Notes under the pieces: model-generated | What the model was told of the DNA's origin: nothing | Database searches by the model: none | What the model saw: the letters and a program-made list of their open reading frames with translations, nothing else | From: Candolleomyces eurysporus | Taxonomy: Eukaryota > Basidiomycota > Agaricomycetes > Agaricales > Psathyrellaceae | Assembly (NCBI GenBank): GCA_027579435.1 | Contig: JANBPK010001583.1 | Span: 1 to 27,394, forward strand | DNA: 27,394 bases | Direction of reading: 5' to 3' | Shown here: positions 2,977 to 27,394 of the stretch, in pieces | How the letters are laid out: the number at the start of each line of letters is the position of its first letter | How positions within the stretch are numbered: the stretch's first letter is position 1 | Program-made: the position numbers and the translations under genes

Positions 2977-5033
2977 ATGGCCGAACCACAAGATTGCGTA
3001 GCCACCGAGCTGTTCTCGAACTCCTGTCACACATCATTGCACGGTGCTAAGTTCAGAACGGCGGGCAACAACGTTAACAGCACCAAGGTCAACATTGGCA
3101 GTATTCACATTGCTTCACCTTCGTCATCCAGCATTACTGGCGTTGGGCAGATGTGGAACAGTATCTCCCAGCAGGTGACCAGATTCTTTCAGTCCCCAGA
3201 GAATCGTGGTGCTCTTGTACATCAGGATCCGTATTCTGGAACGGCGGTAGACACCACCAGCGCGATGATAGGGGCGCAATACTCCATAGGGAATGCAGAA
3301 TCTGAGCAAGACATTCAAGAAGACACCACCGGAAATCATGTCAGTGAACGAAGCAGCCAGGGGAATCCATCCCGCGACAACCCTGAACAATTCCACGATG
3401 ACTACCAAGTGGTGCGTATCCATTTGATCTTTCATTGTTTTCAGACTTAAATAAGCTTGGTTCAACCCTCGCAGTCTGAAATGGCCAAGACTGACATGCG
3501 AGAGGTCCAAGTTCTAGATGTCGTGACGAACGCTGAAATTTACACTCGCACTATGCTGTCTTCAAACGCTGGGCTGCCTTGTTGGTACCCCAAACCTTGT
3601 GGTCCTGTAGGAGAAAGGGGGATAGTTCCAGGCGATGTAGGAACATTCGATCTCATGGATGGCTTCACCAAAATCTTCAACATTTGGGAAGATGAATCTT
3701 TCGCGTACCAGACACCCTCTAGAGAGTGCACCACCAGTCCTGGCCGTTTTGAGGAGGGGCAAACTGTTACAGATGGAATTTCAGCTGAAGTGCAACGATC
3801 AGACGACGGAAGGTGCGCATTCCAACTTTTATCTCATCATATACGCGACTATTTTCGCTAACCGTCCACGCATCAAGTTACATTAAATCATATCGATTTC
3901 GTTGTAAAGCAAAGAAAGGCGCGGTACTTGCATGTACAACCTCAGCAGACTTAGAGCAACTAGTCGACGTTGCTGCTCTTCGCAAGTTCTTGATCCGACA
4001 TGCTGGAGCCATCCTCCAACACGCGAATGGTTTTCGACAGATCGCCGACGAAGACTCCCTCTATATCGTATCTGGATGCATCAAGAGTGACAGTTGGGCA
4101 CTGGCGGCTTATCAAGACTCCACTGAATCTTCGGGCGAAGTCCTCAGGCTTGCAAGAAGAAACGTGCCCAATCTGAATGCAATCCGAGTGCCGACTTATG
4201 ATTGGCTAGCTCGCGGCACCGGGGAGGCTCGATTTGGATCGAACTCAGAAAAGGCTGGCGAGGCTTATAAAGGCAAGGATCAGTCCCTCTTCCTTCGGGG
4301 ATTCAAGCTGGCCTTCTCCCGGGAGTTTCGCGCTCGCTCGAGCGTTACCCTGCTAGTCAAAAGTAACGAGGGGGGGCTAGAGGATGCACCGCCAGGGGCG
4401 AGCTCTTCGGTCAATCGAGACCAAGGAACAGGTGGTAGAAGCTGGGGTACTGATAATTTAGCAGTGACCCGTGATAGATCTAGAGTGGGGGGCTCCGATT
4501 CGTCCGGGTCGCTAACAGGCGACGCACAAGTCACTCATTTCCCCGATTGTTCGAGGCCGGTACGCCGTTTTCCTAGAATGTACGGAGCGTTCGTTACAAT
4601 GCAACTCTAGGTCTTTCATCCAAGCGATAGGATCACCCAATTCCTGCTAGAGTTGGTGAGTTGACCCGTGCTGTTTCAAAATACACAAGAACCTATCCTT
4701 GACGAAATATTGAGACTGGGGCAGACTGCGCACTTTGCCACGACGACGACTGGAGGCACAATCCCAACCTCTCCACGCCGTCTTGGAACGGTGAGTGCAG
4801 GCTCTCCTATTCGAGCTTTGCATTAATTTTCGTGAACAGATGCTTCATGTATTGAGAATATCGCATCGACAACGATATCCGCCCTCAACGGTAAGCATGA
4901 TGAACAATTTTTGCACGGATAACAATACGACCATAACCCCAATCAATCTACAGGGGTAGCCTACTTAACCCATAGAGATGAAGATCACCTGCCCCAAGAA
5001 CCAACTTCAGACGNAAAACCGCCGCCCTTGTAA
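2977..5033 (+). CDS. A1: unnamed agaric GDVGTF-family protein
   Basis: Seven exons: 2977-3411, 3475-3812, 3878-4559, 4611-4655, 4715-4790, 4840-4890 and 4954-5033. They give 568 residues. Exons 4-6 are small but match A2 (14077 onward) border for border. An N-terminal module of about 75 residues (FRTAG, then FFQSPE) is followed by a disordered acidic stretch. The family core follows: NAEIYTRTML, PVGERGIVPGDVGTFDLMDG and FNIW at about residues 160-235, LACTTSADLE and SLYIVSGCIKSDSWALAA at about 270-335, and KDQSLFLRGFKLAFS near 395. The tail has HPSD and CHDDDW. This arrangement recurs as an expanded family in agarics and has no assigned function. No signal peptide or membrane span is visible, so it is probably cytosolic. 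The third exon starts at 3878 only by phase reasoning. An N at 5014 lies four residues before the conserved part ends. A GTAAGA donor at 5030 could bypass the stop and splice to 5091, which would fuse A1 to B1. Confidence 0.72.
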
Positions 5034-5202
5034 GAACATCTCTCCTGGGTCGGACTCTAGGATGTTCGAACATGGTCATAGGCCGCGCAGAAAAGCAAGG
5101 CTCATCCCTCTACCAGCATATCCACAATCGAAATTTGATATTGTTACGATTCCGGTGCCTAGCTACCGGTCCAGATCGCGAAGGCGACACAGAACTTCGC
5201 TC

Positions 5203-8200
5203 ATGCCTCTATTGGCGGGGCGAACCGATAATTTGGCTTATGCCCATGATCCTCTAACAATACTGACCAGCCCACAGATATGCACCACTGAGATATTACC
5301 TCATTCTCACCACCAATCAATCCAGAATGCAGACATCAGGGCGGCAGGGAGTAACATGTATAATGCGCCAACTTACAACATCAACATTCAAACGCCATGG
5401 CCAGGGCACACAGATGTCTGGAATGCTCCCAAAGGCAAGATTTCGATTGCGCAGCCTGAAGCTTCCCCTACGGCACCCTATGTCCGGCACAGTAAGTTCG
5501 TCCACAATGCATTCTATGCAGCCTTTTCCCCATCGCAATTAACAAACGATGTTCCTGGAGGCGGAGGGGATATCACTCCGCCCCTCTCAGAAGACGGCAC
5601 GGAAGCGAATCCTTGGCAGCAAGGGCTCGTCCAGTCGGGAATCGAGAGCGACACTGATCTTGAGCGGCGTAGACCCCCAGCGATATCTTCTACACTCAAA
5701 CCTCCTCTTCGCCTGGACATCCCCCCACGCCCTGAAAATCGAAGATCGCAAGCTACCAGTTCGTCTGCAAAGTCACATAGTTACGGGGAACGACAGCGTC
5801 AAAGTGCCTCATTTGATTCATCCATCCCCGTAGTCGCCAACTGGATAAACGATGCTCATGAAGGTAGAGGTAACGATCCCCAGCTGCACCGGCGTCACAC
5901 TGGAGACCGTACCAACACCTCCTTGGGTGAGGGTGCAATATCTCGCAAGGCCAGGGCTACCCAAGGTCTAGATTCCGTGCCTCAAAGCCAGAAGTGGATC
6001 TTTTCTCTGGCAGATCGTAGGTCATTCGNCCCTGCCCCCAATTCCTCACCTGACGTATTCACCGCAGTCAGGGACCGAGTCAGAGTCACAACAGAGCGGC
6101 CAGTATTTGTCAGTTCATACAACGAAATCTACCTTGGTACGTTCTGCCTAAAAGAGGTCCCCACGGAATCAGATATTCGTATTTACATTGATCTTGTCCA
6201 CGCCAGGCACCCTGTTGGGCAATGAACAGGTAAAATTGGACTCCATCTTCTGTTGTCGCTCTGACATCTCGGACATAGGTTGGGCTGCGTCTACCGATAA
6301 CCTTATCCGACGACGACGATGTTGACAACGTGGGTTCCCCAGTGTCAGTTTTGTATACGGGGAATTTAATCAGTCATGTGTTCGTACCAGCGCTTCCGGC
6401 ACGAGGTTGCTCGATGGGGTACTTTCGACCACCCGAATCTGCTACCTATCTACGGGATTGCTAACATTGGGAACCGTCTGTGTGCAGTCTCGCCATGGAT
6501 GGCCAATGGCACAGCGATAGAGTTTGTCAAAAGGCGTCCGGATGTCGACGTTTTGAAGATACTGTCGGAGATCACGGAAGGTATGTATTCTGCACCTTTG
6601 CGTGTCCCTGTCCCTCTCCCAATCCAACATGCGTGCGCCCCGTGGCTTACAATCATACAGGACTCGCTTATCTGCATTCTAAGGAGATTACCCATGGTAA
6701 TCTACGAGGTGTGAGTGTATTGGCCTGTGTAATATGACCCTATATGACCAAACTCATGTTCTTGTAGGCAAACGTTGTGATTTCGTCAGACGGTATTGCT
6801 AGACTATCCGATTTCAAACTCTCCAGACGCGGCGAAAACGTACGCTTTACTCCATCTCGAACGAGGGACTCCTCTGACTTTTGTGCTTTCAAGGGCGACA
6901 AAGGGCTCCCATCTCCCCACATAAATCCTCGATGGTCTTCCCCTGAAATTTCTGTCTGCAAGAAACTTCCTTTGCTGTCCAAACAATCGGACGTATGGTC
7001 ACTTGGTATGACTTTCCTGGAACTCCTAACTGGGGAGCAGCCCTTCAGTGAGATGGTCCATGTGTCAGAGGTTATGCACGCGCACACTAAGGGAATCCTC
7101 CCGAAACGCCCAACGAGCCCTACGGCGATAGGGGCCGAGCTGAATAACGACATGTGGTGTCTATTAAATCTATGTTGGAAGAAGGCCAGATCACGACCGA
7201 GCATTGAAGAGGTGCAAGCCATGTTATCCTCTAATCGAGAGGGGTCTGTAGGTCCGTCCACATAATTGCCGTTTCTCCAACAGTGTTCCACAGTCACTCA
7301 GAGGTTATTACAGCAAAGGGACACGGAGTCTCATTTCTTGGCAGCTTGCGCCAGATGAATTTACGCTCGTCAAGACCAAACACAGCCAACAGTGTGACAA
7401 GCCGCCGGTTCTTCTCCTCTTCCAGCACTTGGAAGACCGTCGAAACGCACGAAACATCGGCAACCTCGTATTCTCTGGACCCAAACATAACTGATTCGCC
7501 TGTTGATGATCCGCTCTATTTTGAGGTATCTAGAGCACCAAAGCTGCGGCTGGACTATCTGGAACAGACATCATGCCCAACCAATGGTGCTACCGCTCGT
7601 GCTACCAGCGCCAATGCATGGGAGCAAGACAGCTACAACCTGCAATGGGACGAGGAAGATGACCGCCTTCGAACGACTTTGGAGTCAGAGCGTAGCCGCT
7701 CTGTACATGTGAATGCCTCGGGTGCAGTTACTTGCGGGACTCTTGAAGGGTTGGTCGACCGGCTTGTTGACAATTTCCGTGGGTGACTTCGCTTGAAGTG
7801 TTCTAGATCTCATCCCAAGAACTAACCATTTTGTAGACCTTCATAAGGACGAGGAGCTTCGTGACGTAATAATCACCGCCTCTCTCGAATTCACCACGCC
7901 GGAAGGTCTCTGCGCGATGCTAGGGGCACGCTTCGACGAAGCCGAGCAAGACAAATACCAGAACCCTGAGAGGATGGCGGAAACGCAAATCAAGTAAACC
8001 TATTCCACGCTTTATGGAAGCAATCACACTGATCCCTGTATCTAGTGTCCTCGAAATCATGCGCTACTGGCTGACGCAACCTCAGCTGCCAGTCAGCCCA
8101 GAACTACTCTGGGAAATGCAAGAGTTCTGCTTGAAAGCACGGGAGATGAAAACGGCTCCAACCATGGTTGAGAAGGTCCAAAACCTGTTGCATAAGATTG

Positions 8201-9286
8201 AAATGCGGGTAAGCATGGTCTCTCTGGACGTGTTCCGTCTTGTTAAATTTCTTCAGCCTAAGCAGGATGCTGGATCAAGGACATCATTGTCGCCTAGTGG
8301 GAGAACGCTGACTTCGAAGGAGATTACGCCCCAGGGCTTGGCGCTCGCGCTGACGCTTCTCGAAGGGGACAAGTTCAGGCAGATCTCGCCAAGCGACTAT
8401 CTGGCACATCTATGTGGCCGTCCTGAATATACGAACGTGGAGGCTGCGAGCTCCGTTAACGAGAAGATAGTGTTGTGGGTCAAACAGAGCCTTCTCCACT
8501 ATGAGGCTTTGTATCCCCGAGTAGCGCTCATGAAGTTCTTCATCAATACAGCCAAGGTACGACGCATCTATCTCATTCCGCTACAATCTCCTTTGCTCAC
8601 GTATTCCTTGCGGTGACAGGAATGCCGAGAGCTGCGGAACTATCAAAGCCTCGCTGCAATTGCAGTGGCTTTGGGCTCTCCTCCAGTTCAGAGCTTAGAA
8701 GTGACAATGAAAGCTCTTGAAAAGAGCGTGGCTTCCGAGCTGGAGGAGATCGTGAATTTATGCAGTGCCGAAAAAAAATTATTCTCGGTACCGCAAGGCG
8801 CTGAGAGAGGTGGTTGATAGGACTTATCGCGACTACTGCATTCCGTGGATCGGTAAGAATTCGCATTGTCGCTTCGCCTCACCAGATTCGAGCTAAAAAC
8901 TACAATTCTAACCCTACCTGACACCTCTAGACGCGCATATGGGAGATCTTCTCGCAGTACTGCAGGCCCACGAGAAGACAATTGAAGTCAACGGCCAGTC
9001 ACTCATCAATGTCGAGAGGTATACCAAATTCATGATTCAACTCAAAGAGCTGGTCCGCCTCCCTCCCCCTGACCTTGAGCGTTACCGACATCAAGGCCAG
9101 CTCGCCTACCTGGAATCCAAGCTTGCAGATGTCAGGGTGGGTAGGGATGCGGAAGATGCCCTCCTAGAAAAGGCCCAAGGTCTCAAAACTATTGAGAATA
9201 CCCTCGTTTCTAAACGGATCCTACAGAAAATACGCCTGGGTTTTTCTGTAGATGAACAGATGAAGAAGCGATATGTCACTGGATAG
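5203..9286 (+). CDS. B1: pseudokinase-RasGEF fusion protein
   Basis: Thirteen exons end at 6136, 6229, 6329, 6580, 6710, 6839, 7251, 7778, 7993, 8208, 8556, 8852 and 9286, giving about 1120 residues if one extra A in the A8 run at 8771-8778 is discounted. Without that correction the frame stops near 8817, before the conserved PWI and LINVERYTKF blocks. Order: shared N-terminal module (TTEIL, AAGSNMYN, FVHNAFYAAFSPS), about 200 disordered residues, kinase fold (about 305-560), linker, RasGEF_N (GTLEGLVDRLVDNF), then RasGEF (ITPQGLALALTLLEG, KFFINTAKECRELRNYQSL). The RasGEF part should load GTP onto a Ras-family GTPase. The kinase fold looks inactive: no glycine loop, VGLR instead of VAxK, HGNL instead of HGDL, and DFK instead of DFG. 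Residues REEV-like HEV and SPEI remain. The start is uncertain: 5203 is the nearest in-frame ATG before the module, and 5062 and 5356 are alternatives. One N lies at 6029. Confidence 0.7.
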
Positions 9287-9629
9287 GCTTCGCTTCCTCC
9301 TTGCTCCCATTCTTACCGCATGTCAATGTACGGACTAGTTACGTTTGTTCATATCATTACAGCCATTCTAGTTCTTGGACTTCTACTTCATTGAAAATCT
9401 CAGGCGATACCGGTACTGGTCCGTTTGCAACCCGTCAGTATTTCCAGCTGTCGCTATTCCAAGAGTCTTGGATCGACGACTGTCGAGTCCAACTTAAACC
9501 GATCACTTGCGTCCTTCACCCCGGGAGGGTGAATTTGTTCTTGGATTGAATCTTCGAATTACCCGAGTCCACGGGCACCGCTCCCTCCTCCGTTACGCTG
9601 ATGTGGCGACAAATTGAAGACAAGCAACC

Positions 9630-13470: not shown

Positions 13471-13700
13471 AATGGGCTTACTTTGGAGTTCCTCAAGTTC
13501 TCCGGGGTCGCTCTCATTTCACTATCGACGACCTCCGGAACCAAATTCAACTATCATTTCCGCTGTCTGGTTCTGCTAAAGGATATATTGCTGTCTGGCA
13601 GACTTGTCCCTCTAAGTGGCACTGCCGGGGCTCATGGAGGCCCAGAAGTCAGGGACTGGCCCCACAGAGGCGCCGCTATAGTTTTGGTTTGAGCCAGCGC
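13471..13700 (+). CDS. Possible orphan coding exon (hypothetical)
   Basis: After a well-formed acceptor (ATATTGGCAG, ending 13470), a frame of about 70 codons begins EWAYFGVPQVLRGRSHF and contains TIDDLRNQIQLSF and GYIAVWQTC. It has a balanced amphipathic composition unlike random sequence. An upstream frame at 13200-13380 (YYHKLFPEIS, VVAWCSLRPVCF) ends near a GTGCGT donor at 13391, but the phases of the two stretches do not join cleanly. I do not recognise the family. It may be the remains of a gene displaced when the units duplicated, or a leader exon of A2. Nothing similar lies upstream of A1. Confidence 0.3.
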
Positions 13701-13991
13701 CGAGCGGTTAGACTTTCGGCGACAACCGAAACGTGCTCGTCGTATAATACCCGTATTCTCCACCGTATCTTTTCCCTTACACCGCTCTTTTATCAGACGC
13801 TTACACCCATTCGATAACTCCTGCTCTTGATTCTCGAGAATGGTACACTCCCTTTAATCTAATGCTGTGATTGTCATACAGCAATGTGACCCCGTTGACG
13901 GCCTGTCAAAACGATTCAATTGGCACTGCTTGTCCGAACCCCAACCCCCGCATGGTATCCGCGTTTTCCTGTAAACGAGCGCTAATGCCCA
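13701..13991. other. Spacer before unit 2
   Basis: No frame here is supported by homology or splicing. A possible acceptor (TCATACAG, near 13882) is followed by a C-rich stretch, but no upstream donor partner could be phased. Confidence 0.35.
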
Positions 13992-14076
13992 TGGACACCT
14001 CGTCTTGTCAACTCCAGTCTTCTATGCCATCCCTCCCTAGAAGCAGGGATTTCTCGATCCTCTGAAATCCGAACCC
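13992..14076 (+). promoter_or_regulatory. 5' flank of A2 conserved with A1
   Basis: This block aligns with 2904-2976 upstream of A1, including CCAGTCTTC, TATGCCATCC and AGAAGCAG, with a 12-nt longer spacer before the start codon. Both genes then start with a Met-(Ala/Ser)-Glu-Pro context. The conservation supports 14077 and 2977 as true starts. Confidence 0.5.
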
Positions 14077-16235
14077 ATGTCCGAACCGCCGCCGCGAGAG
14101 CGTGGAACCACCGAAATCTTCTCGGACTCCAGCAATCACACACTGCAGAATCCTGAATTCAGAGTTGCGGGGCGGAATATGTACAACTTCTATCTCAACC
14201 TTCCACCATCCGGAGAGCCTTCATCCTACAACCTTAGGCGGACGTGTTGCCGCTTCGTTCAGCAGGTGTACAATTTCTTTCGGTCTCCTGAGAGCCAAAG
14301 CGCTCTTCTGCACCAATCGCAGGGAATGGCGACAGTCAACACTGGCGCGGTGAGGGAAGCGCACTATCCCATCGAGAACGTGGGACCTCCAGGAGGTCTT
14401 CAAGAAAATTCCTCTGGTAATGACATCGGCGAAGAAAACACCAGGGGGAATTCACCCCGAGATGATGACTCCGAACCATCTCAAGACGACTATCACTGGG
14501 ACGTGGTGCGTATACAGCCTGTCCTGTACTTGCTTGAACCTGACGGTCTCGCAGTCTGGAATGAGCAACTTGAATTTGCGAGAACTTCAATCTCAAGGGA
14601 CCATGTCTAACGCCGAAATCTATACTCGTCACATGTTGTGTTCCTACGCAGGGCTGCCTTGCTGGTGCCCCGAACCACGTCACCCAGTAGGGGAGAGGGG
14701 GGGTTGTACCAGGTGATGTGGGAACGTTTGATCTCATGCATGGTTTTAGAAAGATATTCAACCTTTGGGATAATGAATTTATCTTACGGGATCTACTCCC
14801 CCCCCAAGGAAACCACAGTTCATCGGGGCCATTTCGCCGAAGGTCACACAATAACAAAGGGCACTTCTTCAAAAGTTGAACGATCGACAGATGGAAGGTA
14901 CGTTCTGATGTTGCTTTTATTGCATCGAACAGCATGCGCTGACGCTAGTTTGAAGCTACTTCAAGTCGTATCATTTTCACTGCAGAGGCAAGCAAGGTGC
15001 TGTGCTCGCATGCACCACGTCAGCGGACCTGGAAGAACTGGTTGACCCTATCGCCCTCCGTCGCTTCTTGATACAGCACGCAGGAGTCATTTATCAATAT
15101 GCAAATGCTGCTCGATCAATCGCCAACGGGGAGTCCCTCTATGTCGTGTCCAGGTGCATCAAGAGCGACAGCTGGGGACTTGCGGCATTTAACGATCCAA
15201 TGGAAACTCCGGGTGAGATTCTCAAACTTGAAAGGAGAGATATCCACTGTACAACCCGGGCTCCAAAGTATGATTGGTTAGATCGCGGGATGGGGGAGGG
15301 TCGCTTTGGGTCGAACTCGGAAAAGGATCCAGCAGTATACAAAGGAAAGGATCAAGCCCTGTTCCTTCAGGGTTTCAGGGTCGGTTACTCCCAGCCATTT
15401 CGGGATCGGATGAATTCCTGCCCGGGAGTGGCGCATCAGGGCAACGACTCCTCGAAGGATGATTTTCCAAGTACGGGTTCCCCAGGCGACAAAGGAGGAG
15501 CCGGCCAGGGAGGCCGCACTACTAAGAACGCCGATTCCTCTACAAATTCTCCATCTTCGGGACATGGAAGCGCCTCGTTATCCGGCCATGTGCGCTTGGA
15601 TTATTTCCCCGATCTCTCAAAACCGGTACGTCTCTGTGACGTCTTCAGATTATTTTCCTGCTTCAACAATTCCATTCCAACTGTAGGTTTTCCACCCTAG
15701 TGATACAATTACTAGGCTTTTGCTGGAGCTGGTGTGTCAGCCTTCTTGTCAAACTAGCGCGTTCTAATTCTTCATCATTGGCCTCAACTGAATGTCAGAC
15801 CGATGCCGATTGCGCACTCAGCCATGATGAAGATTGGATGCAAAGTTACGAGTTCCGCGCACCCTCTTGGAGTGGTAAGTACTAAGAATGAACGTCGCTT
15901 GAGCACACCCTGAATCTGTACCAATTCAGATGCTTCATGCCTTCGTGTCATTGCGTCGAGTCAGGCTATTTCTGTCGTCAATGGTAGGCATGCCTACCAC
16001 CTCATGGGTCATGGCAGCTGAAATACGAACTCAACTTTCCCTGAATCAAACTTCAGGGGTAGCCTCCTTGACTCTTAGACATGAAGCCCAGTCGCCAGAT
16101 ACGATAACAGTGCCCTTGATTGCTGAGAACACGCTCAGTGCCTTGCCCGTCGACGATACTAATCATGCCTTGGGCCTCCAACAGCCAAACAAAATCCTCG
16201 CGCACCGTATGGCCTGTTCCATCCTGGTTAAGTGA
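14077..16235 (+). CDS. A2: GDVGTF-family protein, N-terminal part of the fusion
   Basis: Exons 14077-14505, 14555-14897, 14986-15625, 15687-15731, 15799-15874, 15930-15983 and 16057-16206 (or reading on to the stop at 16235). The N-terminal module reads FSDSSNHTLQNPEFRVAGRN, then FFRSPE. The family core has NAEIYTRHML, GLPCWCPEP, GDVGTFDLMHGF, LACTTSADLEELVD, SLYVVSRCIKSDSWGLAA and KDQALFLQGFRVGYS, with a tail of HPSD and SHDEDW. It is co-linear with A1. Exon 2 carries two +1 shifts relative to A1: a G7 run at 14697-14703, after which the encoded frame would stop within six codons, and a C8 run at 14798-14805. Taken literally the gene is broken after about 210 residues. The conserved frame on both sides and the homopolymer location make sequencing error about as likely as decay. 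Function is unknown and the location is probably cytosolic. Confidence 0.62.
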
Positions 16236-16259
16236 TTCATACTGACCCGGATTGCTCAG

Positions 16260-19200
16260 TTACCGCTATCTGTGAAAACATCCAAACCCTCGATGTTTAT
16301 CGGGTGCGCCTCCTCGGTCTTTGACGTTGGCCGACATCAAAGCTTATCGGCCTTTGTTTACAGAAACAATGCGAGAATATGGTGACGCAATGTATGGAGT
16401 TGATCCGTTCCGTCCAGGAAGGTGCTCAGGGCCAAGAGGAGACTAAGGCTGCTGCGCTGACGCAACATCTCGAACCGTATGTGGCCTTTTTATTACAGGT
16501 TGCCTAGTCCTGATTTTCTGTTTCGCAGTTCCATAGAAACGATCGATGAGAAGGTTGTGGAGTGGGTAAATTGGGGACCTCTGAAACGCCTCCTGCAGCG
16601 GAGCGAAATCAAGGACGGCGTCGACTTGCTCCAGAGACAGCTCGATGATGCTATTTTCCACTTTGGTGTAAGCTTTTCGCGTTCTTTGTATTGGGATGTG
16701 ACTCACATCATCCGCTTGCTTACAGGCTCCTACAAATTTTGAGCTGCAGCGCAGTCCGCGTGAATCAAAAGTCAGCAGCAGTACCGACAGTACCGAAATC
16801 CGTGAGGCTCTGCAAGCCATTATCGACAGCAGGGTGGAAATAAAAACGTTGTTGGCAATCCAATCTCCACAGCCTGTGGAACAGGTTATGCGACACCTAC
16901 AAGAAGTCAGTCCTTCCTCGACACGTAGTTTTGTTCCTTTATTTGACCTTCAATTTAGGAGCTCCAAAATCCCGACATGCCCGCCGAGCAGAGGGGGAGC
17001 TTCCGAGGAGGGCTATGGGCTCTTTATAGCAAGACGTCAAAATTGCCTCCGTTAACNGACCGTACGTTACAGCGTCACTCTTCATCTCTTCATCTGACGC
17101 ATTTCCTTCAGTCACTGGTCAAGTGGAACTGAACAGCAGAAACCCAGAATTCATAGGCTCATCCAACGATATCTATACAGGTATGTCGTCATGTTCCCTT
17201 CAATAGGCCTCTGCGGAATGGAGTGTTCACATTTTTTTACCTCGAGGCACATGGCTGGACAAGGAAATGGTACAACCGCTCCCTTCAAGTGTTTACATTG
17301 TATTTGACCTTAAGCTCGATAGGTTGCCTTGCGCTTTCCGAAAACGCTATCTCATAGTGCGATTATTATTCATAATAAGGTGTGTCCCAAACGTCCAATA
17401 GCAGTCATATATGGGAATTCTGACTGGATGCGATTCAGGACCTCGAACGAGAAGTCTCTATCTGGCGCAACGTCGATCACCCTAATGTGCTCCCTCTATA
17501 CGGTATTGTGTACATCAGAAAGCATCTGTATTCCGTCGCTCCCTGGATGACCAATGGCACTGCCATCAACTTCGTCCAGAAGCGTCCACAAGCCAATGTC
17601 CTCAAAATGCTGTCGGAGATAGCTGAGGGTACGGAATTTTTTTTTTAGGAAGTGTTTCCTTTCATTTAACACAGGCGCTGACTTCGATGACCGTGTAGGC
17701 CTGGCTTATCTCCATTCCAAGGGGATTGTTCATGGTGATCTCCAGGGCGTAAGTGTATCTGTGTCTGACCATGAACCTTGCCGAGCTGACATTGAGCACA
17801 GGCAAACGTCCTTATTTCGAAGGATGGCGTAGCGAGATTATCAGGCTTTGACCTTTCTAAATTCTTACTAAACGTATGTAATTGACCTTCCTCACTCCAG
17901 ACCATTCCTGATTTCGCGTCCGTTAAGTGCAATAAAGGGTGGACATCCCTGACTTCTTTGCCAATCAATCCTCGATGGCTTGCACCTGAGATACTCCACG
18001 ACAAGCCATCATCAAAAGAGTCTGATGTATGGTCCTTAGGCATGACCTTTTTGGAACTCCTGACTGGTCACCAGCCCTTCGGCCACATAGGGCATGATCT
18101 GGTGGTACTGGACGCACTTAACAAGGGCAAGATCCCAAACCGCCCGACCGGTCCCGCGGTTATCAATGCGGGGCTCAACAAGGACATGTGGTCTCTGTTG
18201 AAAAGTTGTTGGTCGAAAAAGCCAGCGTCAAGACCCCCCATCAAAGAGATAAAACAGACATTGGCTTATATTAGAGGTGAAGATCCTGAAGGTTCGTCGG
18301 TATTGTCAGAATCTCGCCAATGACCCGGCATGCTTACAAAGTGACGTCAGCTTCTTCCTGTGCTGGACGTAAGAAGCGCCGGTCCCTGATTCGCGTGAAG
18401 AAGTCAGAATCCAGGCCAAATGCTGTTAGCAGTATGGCCAATAGCAAATCTTCGTCATCGTTGGGACGACTCCTTGCAGGCTTAGCGGTCAAGAGCATCC
18501 GAGAGGATCTCCGAGGCCTATTGCCCCTCTCCTCAGGATCACCTTCGCCTTTCTATTCGCCGAACCTCTCACAATCCCATTTGCCATACTCTCCAAGCGC
18601 CCGTCGACCGTCGAGCGAGACGCAGCCTCACGACAACACTGGAGGAGGATCTACCTCATCCTTCTTTGCCACAACTTATCACCGTGATGCCAATTGCATC
18701 ATGCCCAAAGCAGCCAGGCTTGAGCTTGCGTATCTGGAAACACCCGCACTGATGTCCTCAGTCGACCGAATTTCCCCCTTGCCTCTTGCTCGGAGATCGC
18801 AGGTGGCCGATAGCCTCAACACCACGGCACGAAGCATTCTCGCCGTTGACTCTGTGAACCAGGAATTCCTCCTTCAGAAAGCTATCTCAGACAGAGATCA
18901 TCTTGTGTATACGAATCACTCCGGTTTAGTGCTTGCTGGCACTCTCAAAGGTTTGGTGAACAGATTGGTGGACAATTTCAGTAAGTAATTTCCATTTCCC
19001 ATTTGTATTGCTCTGGGATGCTAAGCTGCCGTCAGACCTGTGCAAGGATGAAGAGTACCGCAAGGTGATGCTCACAGCATGTACCGACTTCATCACGCCA
19101 GAAGATCTATTTGCAATGTTACAATGTCGCTTTGATGAAGCTGAGCAGGACACACACAAAAATCCCGCAACTAGACTGGCAACCCAATACAAGTACGTGC

Positions 19201-20356
19201 AATGCCCCCACGTCTACCAGACAGTGCATAGAGGGCTGACACGCGACTTATAGCGTCTTCATGGTGATCAGCTACTGGCTTAAACGGCAGCAACTGCCGA
19301 TCGATTCCCGGCTGCTCTGGCAGATGCGAGGGTTTTGTGAAGCTGCGATCAGAATGAAACCCTCCTCTCCAATGGTTGACAAGGCTGCAGATTTGTTGCT
19401 ATTGATTGATACCCAGGTAAGTGTCGATTCCCTTCCCCTCTTCGGAACACTTAATTGTGTTTAGCCCAAGCGAGACGTCATTTCGAGAACGTCGTTGATG
19501 CCTGGAGGGCGAATGCTGTCTGCCAACGAGATTACCCCCCAAGGTTTGGCTATTGCACTTACCCTTCTCGAGGGAGACAGGTACAAGCAGATCATGCCAT
19601 GCGATTATCTAGCCAAGTTTGACCGTCCAGGATACAACAATGTGGACGCTGCCTGTTCAGCTAATAAGAAGATCACGTTGTGGATTAAGCGATCTCTACT
19701 GCACTATGACTCTCTGCAGTCCCGAGCAGCTGTCTCGAAGTTTTTCATCCAAACAGCTCATGTGAGAGATGAACCCCATCGTTTTTCCCTGGCTAACTCC
19801 GTTGACAGGAATGCCGCAAACTTCGGAATTATCATAGCCTCATTGCGATTGCGATTGCGCTGGACTCTGCACAGAGTTTGGATTCGACGAGAGACTACCT
19901 CAGTACCAACACGGTGGCGCAATTGGAAGCTCTCGTGAAATTACCTCATCCTGAAGGCAATTATTCACGATACCGCGAAGTGCTGGCTGAAGTAATTGAT
20001 CCTGCCTACCGCGACTACGGTATCCCGTGGATCGGTAAGTAATTCACGATCCCTTTATCTCGCAAGGATTTAACTGACCGAACCGTTGATGGGATTTTAC
20101 GCGTTTAGCTTTGCATTCGGAAGAACTGCATTTAGTGCTCCACCTGAACGCAAAAGTCGTCGAGATCGAGAAGCGACCCCTCATCAACTTCCAGCGGTAC
20201 ACCAAATTCATGGACCGAGCCAAAGAAATATTCCCTCTAACCCCGCCTGACCTCGAACGTTACCGTCAGCAAGGTCAGCTTGCCTATCTGGAAGCAAAGC
20301 TAGCGGAAGTCGGGCTAGACGAAGGGGAAGAGATGCTCAAGAGGGTCAATCTGTAG
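16260..20356 (+). CDS. B2: MLKL/HeLo-like domain, pseudokinase, RasGEF
   Basis: Exons 8-25 of the candidate fusion, last exon 20109-20356. Exons 8-10 (16260-16667, about 99 residues) give AICENIQTLDVYRKQCENMV, then EEWVNWG-like EWVNWGPLKRLLQRSEIKDG and LQRQLDDAIFHFG. The Cys/Leu spacing and the I-x-x-G/A...LDDA signature are typical of fungal MLKL N-terminal/HeLo-like helical bundles. A linker leads to LTGQVEL and a kinase fold (17112-18291). Its glycine loop is GSSNDIYTG, VALR replaces VAxK, HGDL is intact, GFD replaces DFG, and APEI and SDVWSLGMTFLELLTG are present. After about 200 low-complexity residues with KKRRSLIRVKK come RasGEF_N (GTLKGLVNRLVDNF to YWLKRQQLP) and RasGEF (ITPQGLAIALTLLEGDRYKQ, KFFIQTAHECRKLRNYHSL, YRDYGIPWIG, PPDLERYRQQGQLAYLEAKL). 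The predicted role is a Ras-family GTPase activator scaffolded by an inactive kinase. No frame break was found here. N at 17057 is in phase. Confidence 0.75.
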
Positions 20357-20967
20357 GAACTGCCCCACTCAATGGTGCTCTGACTCAAGAGCGGGTAGGG
20401 TTTGGTGTCTCTATACCCAAAGGTTTCTGCGTATAAATGGAAAAGAACAACTCACAAGCATCAGTCAGGGTACGCAAGCAGATCTGAAGAAGTCGAGGAA
20501 TCACTCAGCCGTAATAAGTTCAAAATTGAGGAAGAAAGGGAGCTGCACCCAAAGATCATTGTGTGAAGCTCCGAATGAAGTTGAACCTTTCGAGTAGTAA
20601 CATTTGCCTACCTGCCTGCTTTCCGCCATGATCAGGCGAGGACAGAAGTACCGCACTTGGTTTTGTTGTAAACGACACTTGTAGCTACGATAATACTGTA
20701 TCTTTGTCGCCTATGTTTTTATTCCACCCAGTCCTCAATATTCCCAGCGATTACTATCCCCTTGGCCCACCATCCGAGGGTGAGGTGTCAAAATTAACGG
20801 CAGATTGCTGTCTTACGCGAAGGGTACAACTTCATGTTGAGGCTTGTCACTGATTCTTGATCAAGTCTTTGCTCGCAGTGTGTCTCGAGCATGGTATAGA
20901 ACGAGTTTTCTGTGGATAATCCGACTCAAATATCATTGCAGGGTGCACGGCACTGAGACGCAGAGAA
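20357..20967. other. Spacer between convergent B2 and the F-box gene
   Basis: About 600 bases between two genes whose 3' ends face each other. No frame with homology was found, and no strong polyadenylation motif is evident. It holds 3' UTRs at most. Confidence 0.4.
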
Positions 20968-22702
20968 TCATTGGACCCCGCAGCCTTTGCCCATAATGGT
21001 GTCAAAATCACAACTACATGCGGTTTGAATAGTTATCGATACCCCGTCAAGCTCGCGAATCGATTCAACAGCAGCTTTCAGCTGAACGCCACCACTACCC
21101 GAGCCCACCCCCCGGGACACGCCCTTCGGCAGACAAACTAGAAGCTTCGGGTTGCTCGTATGGCCCTCGGAATACTGGGAGCCTTCTGCTGTCGAAAGCC
21201 TCGAGTGCNAAAAACGCCGCGAATGACCTCCAATAACTTGCATTGCGGACAAATGATAAGTTTTTACCCCGCTGCCTATGTCGATAAAGGGTGCTATTCG
21301 ACGGATGCAGACAAATCTCGTGAACGTTAGGGAGTAACGCTTGGGTGTCGGCGATGGCCTGCCTGCTACCGTCAACCGATTCGGCATCGTCCGTGAACCA
21401 GGTGTCGAGGCAGAGCCTTCGCACGGAGGAGAGGCCTTTTAAGAGACTGAGAAGGGTTTCGTTGTCTTGGATGAACCAACATCTGAGGTAGAATTCCTGT
21501 AAATTTGATCCATTGTTCTGGAGGAAGCTGACCACTTGTGGTAACGTCTCTGAGAGAGACCGCTGAACGGCGTCATTTTCATAATCGGGGTACCCTTTAT
21601 CAGTGGGTAGGAAAGTAACGATCTGGAGGGTGGAGAGAGATGGGGCATTTATTTTGGAGAAGATGGTGTACGAGCAGGGGTTGATGATTTTGAGGAATTG
21701 AAGCCGGGGGAAGTAGAATGACGGTGCATTGCCCGATAGAGGTTTGGCAAGGCGCATGCTGAGGGTGAGTTCTTTGAGATTTGAGAATCCCCCTAGCTTG
21801 GAGAAATACACGTTTGGGTCGATGTTGTGCATGTGCAAGATCATCTTGGCAAGACTTGGATGGCCAGCAAGGAACGGCAAGCTGCAGTCGTTGTTGCTGA
21901 AACACTTGAGATGCAAAGTGCTGAGCACTGGGAAAGACACCCTGATGACGTCGCATGGGGAAGATGTGGTCCAACTGCAACTGTCTCCAAGTTCGATGTT
22001 TAAATAGCGCGTTTCCCATCGTGCTCCCGCTGGAGCTCGCAGCTTGTCCTCGAATTGCTTGAAGTTGAATTTCCTTACACAGAAGGCTAACCCCATCAGG
22101 CGGGATCGCTGAGAGAATAGGTATTCCAGCCAGTCGTCGGGAATTGGCTTGTTCGACATCCAGTCGAAACCGAGTTGGAGAGGTAGAGACGGTCCCGCTC
22201 GCTCGAAGTATTTCTGGACGCGACGAATCGCATCAGCTACTTTCCCGTCGGTATCAATTGCGATCCAAATATTGGTCCAGAGGGAGTGTGTAGAGAACGA
22301 CACCTCGCGCCACATCCTACAGACAGCACGCAGCTTCTTGAAGTGCCGAAGATCCGTTGTGCTGGTGCGGGAGATTGAACTATGCCAGCCTGTTGGGTTG
22401 ATTGCGACCTGCAGAATATCTGCCAGGATTTCGGGGGGCAGCTTCCGCCACGGGGACAGAATCGGCGCTATCTTATCGTCTCTTCCTTTTTTGAGGGACT
22501 GGTATCGTGATTGAAGTTGAAACAATCGGTCTTGGAGAGTATCGATCTCGTCTGCGCGACGTTCCAACTCTATATCGATGTCCTTCAGCGACTGTGAAGC
22601 CGACTGGCACTCTTCCGAGGTTGGAGGTTCGTTATTCCCTATCACCCTGAGCAAAGAGTTCTGATTTAAGAGGTTTTCAAGGAACTCATCGCTGGAGATC
22701 AT
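20968..22702 (-). CDS. F-box protein with coiled coil and LRR-like tail (alpha copy)
   Basis: Single exon, 577 residues if the N at 21209 is treated as a spurious extra base. With N counted, the frame diverges at AAF and stops at 21095. Without it, the frame passes through AAFLHSR to a tail ending SIRELDGVSITIQTACSCDF..., which matches the beta copy. Start at ATG 22702 (MISSDEF), because the beta copy starts the same way. Residues 32-75 form a coiled coil, and an F-box follows at about 82-150 (SPWRKLPPEILADILQVA, LRAVCRMWREVSF, LWTNIWI). The rest is leucine-rich-like (SLPLQLGFDW, WLEYLFSQRSRLMGL, VSFPVLSTLHLKC, LAGHPSLAKMIL, SVRRLCLDTWF). F-box proteins recruit substrates to SCF ubiquitin ligases through Skp1. 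Such families are greatly expanded in agarics. It is convergent with B2. Confidence 0.82.
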
Positions 22703-22884
22703 GGCAAGAGGAAAGGGGCGTTTAGTGGGCCAGATGCGTGACGCACGGAAGACATTCTCACGTGCATGGTAAATTACATTGAGGAAACACTCCCTGCGTA
22801 GCGAGTGTCGGTACCTCAGACAAAAATAGNTTTTTATTGTCCAGCTCAAATTTGAATAGCTATCATGAATCGACTGAACAATTG

Positions 22885-23190
22885 CCGCGTTCAATTCCTC
22901 CTAATACCGAAGGCCTGCGCCACCATTTTCTCCAAAATACGAACCTCTTCTCTCTTCAAGCTCCCTCAAAATCGTTACCTCCCTGCCTACTGACAGTGAC
23001 CTGTCCTTTAGCGAAAATGATATCCTCAAGGTCTCTCGACGACGTTCCTGCAGCTCGCCAGCTTCCTCCAAGAAGGGAGGTCGGGATGATTAGATTTCTA
23101 CCTCAGATGCTAGTTCATGGAGGACAACGAAACCCTCCGACGCCCGTTCGACGTCCTTGCCTCCGTACGACGCCTCTGCCTCGACAGCCG
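22885..23190 (+). pseudogene. Inverted F-box relic on the plus strand
   Basis: On the plus strand this stretch reads RVQFLLIPKACATIFSKIR, which matches RLQFLKIINPCSYTIFSKIN of the alpha F-box gene. Later it reads QLASFLQEG, LDFYLRC, FMEDNETLRR and SVRRLCLDS, which match VVSFLQ, QEFYLRC, FIQDNETLLS and SVRRLCLDT. The frame shifts between blocks and contains stops after RSG and after YLRC. It is a third F-box-derived piece, in the opposite orientation to its neighbours, and lies directly in the spacer between the alpha promoter and the beta 3' end. Confidence 0.75.
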
Positions 23191-23326
23191 TTGTGAACTT
23201 TTGAGCCCAGACATGAACACAGGGTGTCTCCAAGAAACAAGATCAAATATTGTTTGATACATAGTGACTAGTGTAATATATTGAGCGTATGTAGTATTGA
23301 AATAGTTGAAGTATTTATCACTCAAC

Positions 23327-25032
23327 TCAAACATCACAAGTACACTTGTTTTGAATAATTATGGACGCCCCATTGAGCTCACGAATCGACGCAACGGCCT
23401 CCAATTGAGTATCATCCACTCCATACACGCCCTCCTCCAAGTCCGGAAGGTAAACGAGTATTTTTGGCTTGCTTATAATGCCCTCGGAGTGGTTCACAAG
23501 TCCAGGAGCTTTGGCTGTGGAACCAGGAATACCAACATCCGATTCGGAGGCCGGTTTTCTCGAGTGCAAAAATGCAGCGAACGACCTCCAAAACCGAGGG
23601 TTGCGGACAAACGGTGGGGGACCTGTCCAGCGGGAAGGAATTTCTTCTGGCAGATGTTGACAAATTTCGCGAACGTTAGGCAGTAGTGATTGATTACTTA
23701 TGGTCCGCGCTCGGTCGTCATCCTCGGAAGTGGATTCGGAGTCGTCCGTGAACCAAGTGTCGAGGCAGAGCCTTCGCACGGAGGGGAGAGCTTCAAGGAG
23801 GCGGCGAAGGGCTTCATCGTCTTGCATGAACCAGCATCTGAGGTAGAAATCTTGGATTTTTGACCCCGCTTCTTGTAGGAAGCCGATCAATTGCGGGAAA
23901 GTCGTCCACAACTGCTGTTGGACGCTCGGAGTCCCATGAACGGAAGTCGCGATCCGGAGGTCGGAGAGAGAAGGGGCTCGTATCTTGGACAACACGGTGA
24001 ATGAGCAGGGGTCGCGTATGGTGAGGTATTGGAGGTCGGGGAGTTCGCAGGATGGGGCGTCGTTTTGATATTGACTGATACGCGCAAGTGGTCAAAGTGA
24101 GTTCATAAATGTGTTTAAAACCGCCGAGCCTGGAGAAACACCGGTCCTGGTTGATTTTGGCCATATTGAGGTGTAACTTGGCCAGGCCTGGATGGCCGGC
24201 AAGGATAGCTAGGTGACAGCTTTCATCTCTGTCCGACGAGATATGGATAGATTGGAGCGCTGGGAAAGACGCGTCGATGACGTCGGAGGTGGCAAGCGCT
24301 GTTCCACCTCGAAGTCTGACATTTAGATAGCGTGTTTCCCATGTTGCTCCGTCTGAATCTTTCAACCTCTCCTCGAACGCCCGAAAATAGGACGTTGTTG
24401 ATTTGACGGTAATCTCTATCAGACGGGATCGCTGAGACAACAGGTATTCCAGCCAGGTGTCAGAAACGGGGTTGGACTTCTTCCTCCATTTGAATCCCAG
24501 CTGGAGAGGCAGAGAGGGCCCCGCCCGCTCGAAGTATTTCTGGACGCCACGAATAGCATCAGCCACTTCCTCTGTTCTGTACTCGTCAAAGTCGATCCAA
24601 ACGTTGGTCCAGAGTGAGGGGGTAGAGAATGCCACCTCACGCCACATCCTGCAAACCGCACGCAGGTTCTTGAAGAGCCTGCGATTGGTTGAGTGGACAG
24701 CGGAGACGAAGTAATCATCCCAACCTGGGTTGACTGCGACCTGGAGGGTATCGGCCACGATTTCNGGGGGGTAGCTTCCGCCATGGCGAAAGAATCGCCG
24801 AAATATCCTTTCTTTTCGTTTCGAGAATCTTGCATCGTGATTGTAGTCGAGAGAGTTGCGATGGGAGCGCCTCGATTTCAGCCTGCAGCTGTTTCAACTC
24901 CGTATCGATGTCCTTTAGTTTTTGTGAAGCTAACTTGGACTCTTCCAACGTTGTTGGAAGGTTATTGCCCGTAATTCTGGCCAGAGGGTCGTAATCTGAC
25001 TGACTTTCAGGGGGAGTATCGCTGGAGATCAT
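23327..25032 (-). CDS. F-box protein with coiled coil and LRR-like tail (beta copy)
   Basis: Single exon, 567 residues if two single-base excesses are discounted. One is the N at 24765 beside a G6 run, inside the F-box (KLPP then EIVADTLQVAVN). The other is a fourth A on the minus strand (T4 at 24063-24066) where the left paralogue at about 11140 has three. Without these corrections the gene falls into three frames. Start at ATG 25032. The coiled coil is about residues 25-70 (KLKDIDTELKQLQAEIEAL), then an F-box with LRAVCRMWREVAF and LWTNVWID, then the LRR-like region (WLEYLLSQRSRLIEI, IDASFPALQSIHI, LAGHPGLAKLHLNM, FYLRCWFMQDDEALRRLL, FVRNPRFWRSFAAFLHSR), ending NKCTCDV. The likely role is an SCF substrate adaptor. 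It is paralogous to alpha and to the downstream half of the chimeric pseudogene at 10373-11880. It may be a pseudogene if the A-run insertion is real. Confidence 0.78.
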
Positions 25033-25212
25033 GGTGGACCGAGGTCAGGGTACCCTCGGCATGTGCGGCATTGGACCGCGGGAATATTCCGATCACGTGT
25101 GGTGTTGAACCTCGCGTCGCGTTCCCGATTTGGCCTCGTGCAATTTCAACGTTCTTTGTCCTCCATCATCTGCGACACCACCGATAACACCAAATCATCC
25201 ATATATCCCGCG
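25033..25212. promoter_or_regulatory. Short divergent promoter region
   Basis: Only 180 bases separate the start codons of the beta F-box gene (25032, minus) and the MAP65/Ase1 gene (25213, plus). Both promoters or leaders must lie here or within the neighbouring gene. The Ase1 frame stays open upstream to 25063, so an extended N-terminus from a non-ATG start cannot be excluded. I see no clear TATA box. Confidence 0.45.
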
Positions 25213-27394
25213 ATGTCGACGGCGGAGACAGCGACGACGACGACAATAACAACAGCAACAACCACTACCACAGCACCGACGACAGCAATGACCCTGACGT
25301 CTCTGCTGGACTCGCTGCACACTCATCTACAATCGCAAACACAACTCCTACCCACCCTCCATGCCCAGCTGGGACTTCCACCAACAGCTCTCGAGGATGA
25401 CCTCAAGAACTTGCAAGAGCAACTCATCCAAGGTGTTGAGAAGCACATTGATCTGCGGCGGAAACAGGTCGATGAGTGGATGGAGAGCTGCGAGGCCGTG
25501 GAGACGGTCTGCATTCGATATACCAAAGCTCTGGGCGGTAACGTCAAAGCGACAGGCACGAGTCTGGGGGAGCTGAGGAAGGAGCAGTCCTTACCTCGAC
25601 GATACGAACTCGTCACCGAATTCCAAGAAAAGCTACGCCAGACCTACCACGCCAAACTCGAACAATTAACCACATTAACCAACCGCCTCAACCACCTCGC
25701 TCGAACACTCGGCACACTCTACTTCGCACAAGACGTTTTGGAGGCCACACCAGCCGCGGGGGAGGCGGCGTTTGACGCTACCGCTCCGAGGGATATCACC
25801 CCAGAACGATTCTTGAAACTCGAGAAGGAGTTGGTGAGGGGCAAGGCGGAGGTGACGAAGCGGTTGCACCAGCTTTCTTCTGTATTCGTCCAAATAGACT
25901 GGCTGTACTCGGAGCTTGGGATGCCGCCACCTTTGCCCGGTGAAAGTCCACCCCCACCGACGTCCATGGCAACCGACGACCCGTTCTGCGTTTCAACTCC
26001 CACACCGGCATCACGAACCTCCAGCACTACGCCTCTCCTATTCCAAGACAACGAAGAGGCCGAGTACCTGCGGATATTTGGGAATTTCGTTGCGCGGATT
26101 GAGGAAGTGGAGGAAGGAAGTTTGGTAGGCCTTGAAGGCGTTGAGCCAACCCAGGGCCTCTTGGAATGGGCAGCCATGCTCCATTCCTCGCTGGAAGAAC
26201 TAAAGAAGAAGCGTGAAGCTCACATTCAAGCCATGTATGATCAACTGGAGGGGCTGTGGCGGCGGCTGGGCGTGAACGAAGAGGCCATGGACGCATTCGT
26301 TGAAATGCATCGCGGGAGCACGGAAGAGGTCATCAGAGAGTACGAAGAGGAGCTGGAGAGGATGTTGGAGCTGAAGCAGGATCGGATGGGTCAATTTATC
26401 GAGAGTGCTCGAGAGGAGATTGTGCGGCTGTGGGATGACCTCATGGTTGGCGAGGACGAGAAGGCTGACTTTGCGCCTTTCGTCGATGGTGCGTTTTCGC
26501 GACTATTTTCGTTTTCTGTCGCTGACTTTTTTTATAGACGAATTCACGGAAGAGCTGCTCACCATTCATGAAGACGAGATCCGGAGGCTGAAAGAAGAGC
26601 GACGAATGAAGGCACCTCTCCTCGCAAGTATCAAGAAGTACTTCCAGATATGCGACGAGGAGAAGGAACTGCAAGCAGCAGCGGCCGACCAAACGCGACT
26701 ACTCGGACGAGGCCGTGACCCCGGCCGACTCTTGCGAGAAGAGAAAATGCGAAAACGCGTTCAGAAAGAGAAACCAAGGGTAAGTCAACCATACCAGGTT
26801 TTCGCAGCCACTCATGCTTATCATATGTTATTTTCATCTAGCTCGAACAAGACCTCCTCACATCCATCCCAGCATGGGAGCTCGAAGCTTGCAAACCCTT
26901 CCTCATACATGGGGAAAGCATCCTACAGCTCCTCCTCGAAACCGTGGCTGTTTCTCAAGAACAAGAAAACAAACGCAAGACGACACGAGCAGGGACACGC
27001 GCTACTACCCCGACAGGGACGTCAGGCGGGTACGTGCCAGGTGGCAGCACCAGCAAAGCAAGTGGTTCCGTCACTCCAGCTGTTCGCCCCGCATCCTCCA
27101 TGGCATCTTCCGGACCTAACAAACGCCAAAAACTGGGTGACTCGACTTCCTCTTCCTTGTCAAACTCGACGTCAAACCCGACTCCGGCGTATGCACCAGC
27201 GACTGGAAAGCGGGTTCCGCTTGCCTCGCATAAAGGGAACGGAAATGGGACGGCAACGAAGAATGTAAGGTCGCGGTCGAAGACGCCTGGACCTGCAGCG
27301 TCGTCATTACCCAAACCTCCGTCATCTCAGCGTCAGCAACAACAGCCATCGCAGATTGCGATGCCGGTTCCAAGAGCGGGGACGCAGCATCATG
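25213..27394 (+). CDS. ase1: Ase1/PRC1/MAP65 microtubule-bundling protein, 3' truncated
   Basis: Exons 25213-26488, 26538-26779 and 26842 to the window edge (at least 690 residues). Ase1/PRC1/MAP65 proteins crosslink antiparallel microtubules in the spindle midzone and recruit kinesins for anaphase and cytokinesis. Seen here: a Thr-rich start (about 2-27), then a long helical rod with repeated coiled-coil heptads from LLDSLHTHLQSQ to the spectrin-like region. The family landmark LWDDLMVGEDEK...FAPFVD lies at the first intron, then LKEERRMKAPLLASIKKYF, LLREEKMRKRVQKEKPRLEQ and the SIPAWELEACKPFLIHGE block. The C-terminal tail is basic and Ser/Pro-rich with an NKRQKL nuclear-localisation-like motif. 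Start is at ATG 25213, the first ATG in frame. The gene looks single-copy and intact, and probably marks the edge of the duplicated accessory region. Confidence 0.9.
25226..25290 (+). repeat. ACN trinucleotide tract coding poly-Thr
   Basis: Imperfect ACA/ACG/ACC triplets encode a Thr-rich run at residues 5-27 of the Ase1 homologue. It is a low-complexity, slippage-prone coding microsatellite near the start codon. Confidence 0.7.

Follow-up and report, generated by a model that had tools for sequence, protein, structure and literature searches.

A Candidate Gasdermin-like, MLKL-like, Pseudokinase and RasGEF Fusion Gene in the Agaric Candolleomyces eurysporus

Gene Structure of the Locus

The stretch of DNA analyzed here (the window) comprises 27,394 nt from the agaric Candolleomyces eurysporus and corresponds to contig C578 in an assembly of 65.85 Mb and 1296 contigs. 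Coordinates are window-based and refer to the plus strand unless stated otherwise. The gene under study lies at 14077–20356 and likely encodes a GDVG (GDVGTF) domain of predicted gasdermin-like fold, an MLKL-like helical bundle, a kinase-like domain and a RasGEF module, in this order. A tandem copy lies upstream at 2977–9286. The other haplotype of 13636–21369 was found on contig C260, with 97.3% identity. The closest named protein among the matches listed was P0001 of Candolleomyces aberdarensis (Psathyrellaceae).

The spliced path ran from the ATG at 14077 to the stop codon at 20356 through 25 exons and 24 GT..AG introns of 47–88 nt. The initial annotation had described a phased 25-exon path of 1620 codons. 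The 25 exons stood, but the phasing and the codon count did not: the exon lengths total 4862 nt, which is not divisible by three, and two frame changes in exon 2 had been missed. These were located at a G7 run (14697–14703) and a C8 run (14798–14805). From 14806 to the stop codon, a single frame of 1393 codons was open across every later junction, and these 1393 amino acids were open in both haplotypes.

Exon 1 (14077–14505) contained the ATG, which was the same in the other haplotype, the N-terminal motif (SSNHTLQNPEFRVAGRNMYN) and a low-complexity leader. The GDVGTF core started in exon 2 (14555–14897), the frame of which was intact in the tandem copy (3475–3812). Exons 3–7 (14986–16206) encoded the rest of the predicted gasdermin-like domain and a C-terminal segment. 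After the joining intron 7 (16207–16259), exons 8–12 (16260–17061) encoded the bundle without its first ~20 residues (hG and the first half of helix 1), and then more helices and a linker. Exons 13–19 (17112–18291) encoded the kinase-like domain, exon 20 (18351–18980) a basic, Ser-Pro linker and the start of RasGEF_N, and exons 21–25 (19036–20356) the remainder of RasGEF_N (REM), the RasGEF (Cdc25) module and the stop codon.

Frame Breaks and Haplotype Comparison

At the G run, C260 read NGGGGGG. In the aligned stretches, 7 of 9 N's, often beside homopolymers, had a gap opposite them in the matching haplotype or paralogue. Single N's facing a gap occurred at window positions 138, 6029, 12151, 12158 and 21209 and twice in C260, and were probably spurious bases. 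Since 7 of 9 N's face gaps, the N at the G run is probably no base, which probably leaves the C260 haplotype with six Gs and an unbroken frame at this point. The tandem copy encoded the first exon 2 segment (GERGIVPGDVGTFDL...) without a frame break, and P0001 was in frame through the C8 place (RDQLPSKETT). Measured against the conserved protein, each run therefore seems to carry one base too many. The C8 run was identical between the haplotypes and was not flagged by any N; either a systematic sequencing error or a genuine lesion may lie behind it. As the N's beside homopolymers indicate, run lengths in this assembly are uncertain. A programmed frameshift at the runs would be a further reading and was set aside. 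A tiny intron bridging the G run was rejected: the GT..AG options in reach, read by eye, were too short, and the tandem copy encodes the same stretch intronless.

Apart from the N at the G run, haplotype indels within 14077–20356 occurred in introns only (14536, 15657). The exons differed by 121 single-nucleotide polymorphisms (SNPs), 60 synonymous and 61 non-synonymous, with zero stops and a ratio of non-synonymous to synonymous polymorphism (pN/pS) of 0.31. Non-synonymous SNPs were below the neutral expectation (p 2.9e-10, or 5e-6 under a stricter null). From the bundle to the gene end, 36 of 80 SNPs were non-synonymous (p 1e-9 with a site-count null; 3e-6 with the stricter 70% null), compared with 25 of 41 in exons 1–7 (p 0.017 and 0.14, respectively). 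The pN/pS was 0.18–0.30 in the kinase-like to RasGEF parts and 0.41–0.52 upstream. Based on the SNP counts by part, the C-terminal two thirds are clearly under constraint and the N-terminal third only weakly so.

Family Membership

The family protein search scored 7988 candidates sharing most words and gave 134 matches, and the best 31 of the 120 listed were aligned. P0116, a further RasGEF protein at 24%, was left out of the alignment. In the tree of the RasGEF part, the window gene nested by common descent inside an agaric bundle-kinase-RasGEF family; P0001 was 83% identical to it in this part, with short branches. The family includes P0002 of Ephemerocybe angulata and P0017 of Coprinopsis cinerea ('TKL/TKL-ccin'), and shares with the window gene an MLKL_N-like bundle, a VALR/VAVR kinase-like domain, and RasGEF_N with RasGEF. 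Unlike the window gene, most members start at the bundle (full models of ~965–1208 amino acids) and retain its first helix and DFG. The survey of agaric proteins suggested in the initial annotation recovered the same domain order in P0001, whereas in the other aligned relatives among the matches listed no GDVG domain was seen. The window gene is likely a derived, fused copy of the family.

Five other RasGEF loci of the genome (L002, L003, L006–L008) were rejected as family members; with 25–39% identity in fragments, they are other RasGEFs. Fruiting-body transcript tables of C. cinerea list a TKL-ccin kinase and a ras GEF, neither tied to P0017 in the available part of the source (PMC4082614), and were not used.

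Kinase-like and RasGEF Domains

The kinase-like domain matched PK_Tyr_Ser-Thr (PF07714) in Pfam at 4.1e-41. The beta-3 Lys of VAIK was replaced by Arg (VALR, 17332–17334) and DFG by GFD (17844–17852), while the catalytic-loop Asp was kept in HGD (17731–17739). The other haplotype had His at the beta-3 position and HND for HGD. Among the 31 aligned relatives, beta-3 was Arg in all 20 named agaric models covering the strand and Lys in 4 of 4 from Rhizoctonia, and 7 did not cover it; DFG was found in 26 and GFG in 2, and the motif was absent from 3 models. The HGD Asp aligned in all rows. The catalytic residues lost, as predicted from sequence, are those expected of a pseudokinase, and catalytic impairment is the natural reading. 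MLKL's own catalytic defects differ from VALR/GFD.

The C-terminal part matched RasGEF (PF00617) at 7.9e-28 over profile positions 2–180 of 181 and RasGEF_N (PF00618) at 8.6e-9 over positions 2–87 of 106. The pseudokinase and the RasGEF_N and RasGEF domains proposed in the initial annotation were thus both recovered. The REM and Cdc25 domains form the architecture of RasGRP2, SOS1 and fungal Cdc25, and the fold of the P0002 model agreed; nucleotide exchange on Ras is putative. These proteins were 20–23% identical to P0002 in the rows shown, and the agaric family adds the bundle and the kinase-like domain in front.

MLKL-like Bundle

The window bundle piece matched MLKL_N in Pfam with E 0.0055 and 16.7 bits alone, and 0.058 in context, under the 27-bit cut-off. 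At the family level, MLKL_N matched every one of 16 bundle pieces with E ≤ 0.1 (best 2.1e-8), namely those of 15 relatives with a fairly complete N terminus, taken from the 31 aligned, and the window piece; the bundle of P0002 reached 25.3 bits, slightly under the cut-off. The family bundle profile gave 11 matches in the PDB, of which the top seven were MLKL chains (9.6e-5 to 3.7e-3) and the others had E ≥ 1.8. These matches rule out a chance helical match at the family level.

The AlphaFold model of P0002 had a mean predicted local distance difference test (pLDDT) of 74.6 and a predicted template modelling score (pTM) of 0.44, with helices at 16–29, 36–57, 63–87, 90–96, 98–118 and 132–154. 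For MLKL and basidiomycete MLKL-like domains, the available part of PMC9815663 gives a core of four helices in which a short helix separates h3 from h4, and the model agrees with this. In fold searches with P0002, the top 50 rows were kinase and RasGEF with no MLKL row among them, and the bundle was thus untouched by the search.

The window bundle starts at LTAICENIQ, and its N-terminal helix is not intact. This helix is stressed for killing by MLKL and HeLo bundles in the available part of PMC10197012. Since its start is missing, the window bundle is unlikely to kill by itself. The membrane-acting MLKL/HeLo bundle of the initial annotation therefore held as a profile likeness, but killing of the MLKL/HeLo type by this bundle is doubtful.

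GDVG Domain

The upstream agaric GDVGTF domain reported in the initial annotation was confirmed. In a fold search with the GDVG domain model, the leading matches were membrane-perforating families, gasdermins first and then MACPF/CDC, and the predicted fold corresponds to the pore-forming N-terminal fold of gasdermins. A shared fold by itself demonstrates no function. Pfam gasdermin families were absent in 13 of 13 GDVG sequences, and the PDB sequence search gave no gasdermin match for them; the PADLOC bGSDM profile matched 1 of 13 (E 0.024). Because the sequence profiles fail to match, the domain is called gasdermin-like and not a member of the gasdermins. The model makes a fold relationship to gasdermins likely, and the presumed place of the membrane-acting part therefore shifts away from the bundle. 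The fungal gasdermins RCD-1 and HET-Q1 had no detectable sequence match to the window; as described in the available part of PMC10197012, they have a short inhibitory tail and a separate protease gene, whereas the window gene has a long C-terminal signalling chain.

The GDVG protein search scored 7994 candidates sharing most words. The window's N-terminal third was used as a further query (candidate lengths 890–2830 amino acids, 7988 candidates sharing most words scored), and at least seven matches were obtained, all from Candolleomyces: P0001, P0137, P0146, P0147, P0148, P0149 and P0150. In P0147 (C. aberdarensis EST38_g8147), a single gene model joined GDVG to a caspase domain (PF00656, 3.2e-18); should the model be right, the pore former would share a chain with its protease. 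P0150 (Candolleomyces efflorescens MD484_g6448) resembled the window gene in having GDVG, an MLKL_N-like stretch (E 0.0011, under the Pfam cut-off) and a kinase in one model, but its kinase has VAIK, HGD and DFG, and it has no RasGEF. P0137 had GDVG plus kinase, P0146 GDVG plus GATA, and P0149 GDVG plus Fungal_trans; P0148 had no Pfam match, and among these matches RasGEF was found in P0001 only. P0147 and P0150 are in line with a pore-forming head that is fused to its controllers. GDVG with GATA, Fungal_trans or Forkhead domains may be merged neighbour genes and was not built on.

The N-terminal motif (roughly SHNxS...AG[RN][DN]; 14116–14200) was seen in several GDVG proteins, with a second copy at 5284–5400 in the tandem copy. 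It is alike in kind to the amyloid-like N-terminal motifs of agaric NOD-like receptors (NLRs) in the available part of PMC9815663; the putative reading as an amyloid signal was not built on.

Tandem Copies and Neighbouring Genes

The tandem copy contained GDVG, a linker with the second N-terminal motif (5284), a kinase-like domain (HGN, DFK) and RasGEF. No MLKL bundle was detected within 2977–9286. An A8 run at 8771 broke its RasGEF frame in both haplotypes. A 4.3-kb part (3005–7341) was absent from the other haplotype, at C260 ~32051, which is either a presence/absence polymorphism or an assembly collapse. On the minus strand of C260, two more inverted kinase-RasGEF copies were found at 15.9–18.8 kb and 22.9–25.5 kb, one of them 88% like window 5525–9431. 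No clear GDVG domain was found in these two copies, and one had a weak N-terminal match (E 0.003). Six other open reading frames of the window were scanned with Pfam. The cluster neighbours were a MAP65/ASE1 gene (25000–27265, plus strand; 8.5e-27) and F-box-like genes (21098–24893, minus strand).

Discussion

The gene may, tentatively, encode one chain of gasdermin-like domain, truncated bundle, pseudokinase and RasGEF that acts as a latched membrane switch. Ordinary gasdermins have a C-terminal repressor. In the window protein, the bundle and pseudokinase would take its place and keep the N-terminal gasdermin-like domain inactive. A signal sensed by the pseudokinase or the N-terminal motif would free the head for membrane action. 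The RasGEF, carried to the membrane along with the head, would provide a second, non-lethal output by loading Ras, and the truncated bundle would serve regulation or docking rather than killing. The Ras or cell-death signalling suggested in the initial annotation likewise stays a putative role. As to origin, the tree suggests that a bundle-kinase-RasGEF gene conserved in agarics underwent duplication in the Candolleomyces lineage; the duplicate would then have lost its own first exon and been taken over by a gasdermin-like gene upstream of it, at a time when the tandem copies had not yet separated.

That GDVG and bundle-kinase-RasGEF form one fused protein is reasonably probable. P0001 has the same domain order with an open frame across the GDVG/bundle junction, and the tandem copy repeats the order GDVG, linker, kinase-like and RasGEF. 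Intron 7 is well formed, with a good GTATGG donor, a branch-like CTGAC site 15 nt before its end, and CAG. Several points weigh against the fusion. Unspliced through intron 7, the upstream frame stops at 16235, and stand-alone GDVG proteins without any Pfam domain (320–912 amino acids) are among the matches listed. The P0001 gene model omits parts, and automated models merge neighbours, as in P0123 with a NOPCHAP1 domain in front. The tandem-copy path requires the N at 5014 to be a real base, and its exon 3 acceptor could not be phased by eye. The stop, the stand-alone proteins and the merged models would also suit a pair of adjacent genes, one a stand-alone gasdermin-like GDVG gene to ~16235 and the other a bundle-kinase-RasGEF gene with its first exon lost or unrecognised; moreover, the agaric family mostly begins with its own MSLKDLL..-type exon. 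However, no family-type first exon was found upstream of exon 8, where the in-frame stretch directly before it, read by eye, has a stop and no ATG. With the open P0001 junction, the repeated order and the intact intron also against them, two genes are rather unlikely.

A decaying copy within a birth-and-death cluster, either a pseudogene or a partly decayed fusion, would account for the frame breaks at G7, C8 and the A8 of the tandem copy, the lost bundle start, GFD, the beta-3 R/H haplotype difference, the 4.3 kb missing from the other haplotype and the inverted copies without a clear GDVG domain. Such decay is improbable for a frame of 1393 amino acids open in both haplotypes, with no stop among 121 SNPs, the low pN/pS and a RasGEF part so close to its C. 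aberdarensis orthologue; the N's beside homopolymers also make the run lengths uncertain. It is likewise doubtful that the protein works as a Ras exchange factor that never forms a pore and uses its two upstream domains only for docking or sensing. In favour of that reading, constraint between haplotypes is strongest from the kinase-like domain to the RasGEF, the bundle is truncated and fold likeness alone proves no function; against it, membrane-perforating families lead the fold search with the GDVG model, and GDVG is also joined to a caspase in P0147. The latched switch in one chain was preferred.

Compared with MLKL and the fungal HeLo/BaMLKL proteins, as described in the available part of PMC9815663, the window gene has the common four-helix bundle profile match and the order of bundle then pseudokinase, but the start of its bundle is missing and a RasGEF stands behind. 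A literature search of titles and abstract openings, with incomplete coverage of fungal gasdermins, gave no MLKL-like/kinase/RasGEF protein and no agaric gasdermins among those listed, which is weak evidence of absence.

Gasdermins and MLKL are the separate executioners of pyroptosis and necroptosis. If the account is true, the window chain unites executioner modules of both types with a Ras activator. More speculatively, the Psathyrellaceae may have an unrecognised gasdermin-like superfamily, with the head joined in cis to a caspase, to an MLKL-like bundle and kinase, or to a bundle, pseudokinase and RasGEF, and the window protein would be a one-protein switch between membrane rupture and Ras signalling. 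An agaric gasdermin-like head that escapes the sequence profiles tried and carries its controllers in the same chain would widen pyroptosis and necroptosis biology to include mushrooms, and would allow a direct test of whether one molecule decides between Ras signalling and membrane death. A second system open to testing is the agaric bundle-kinase-RasGEF family with its fixed beta-3 Arg, where, in an MLKL-like architecture, the exchange factor for Ras would be under the control of a pseudokinase.
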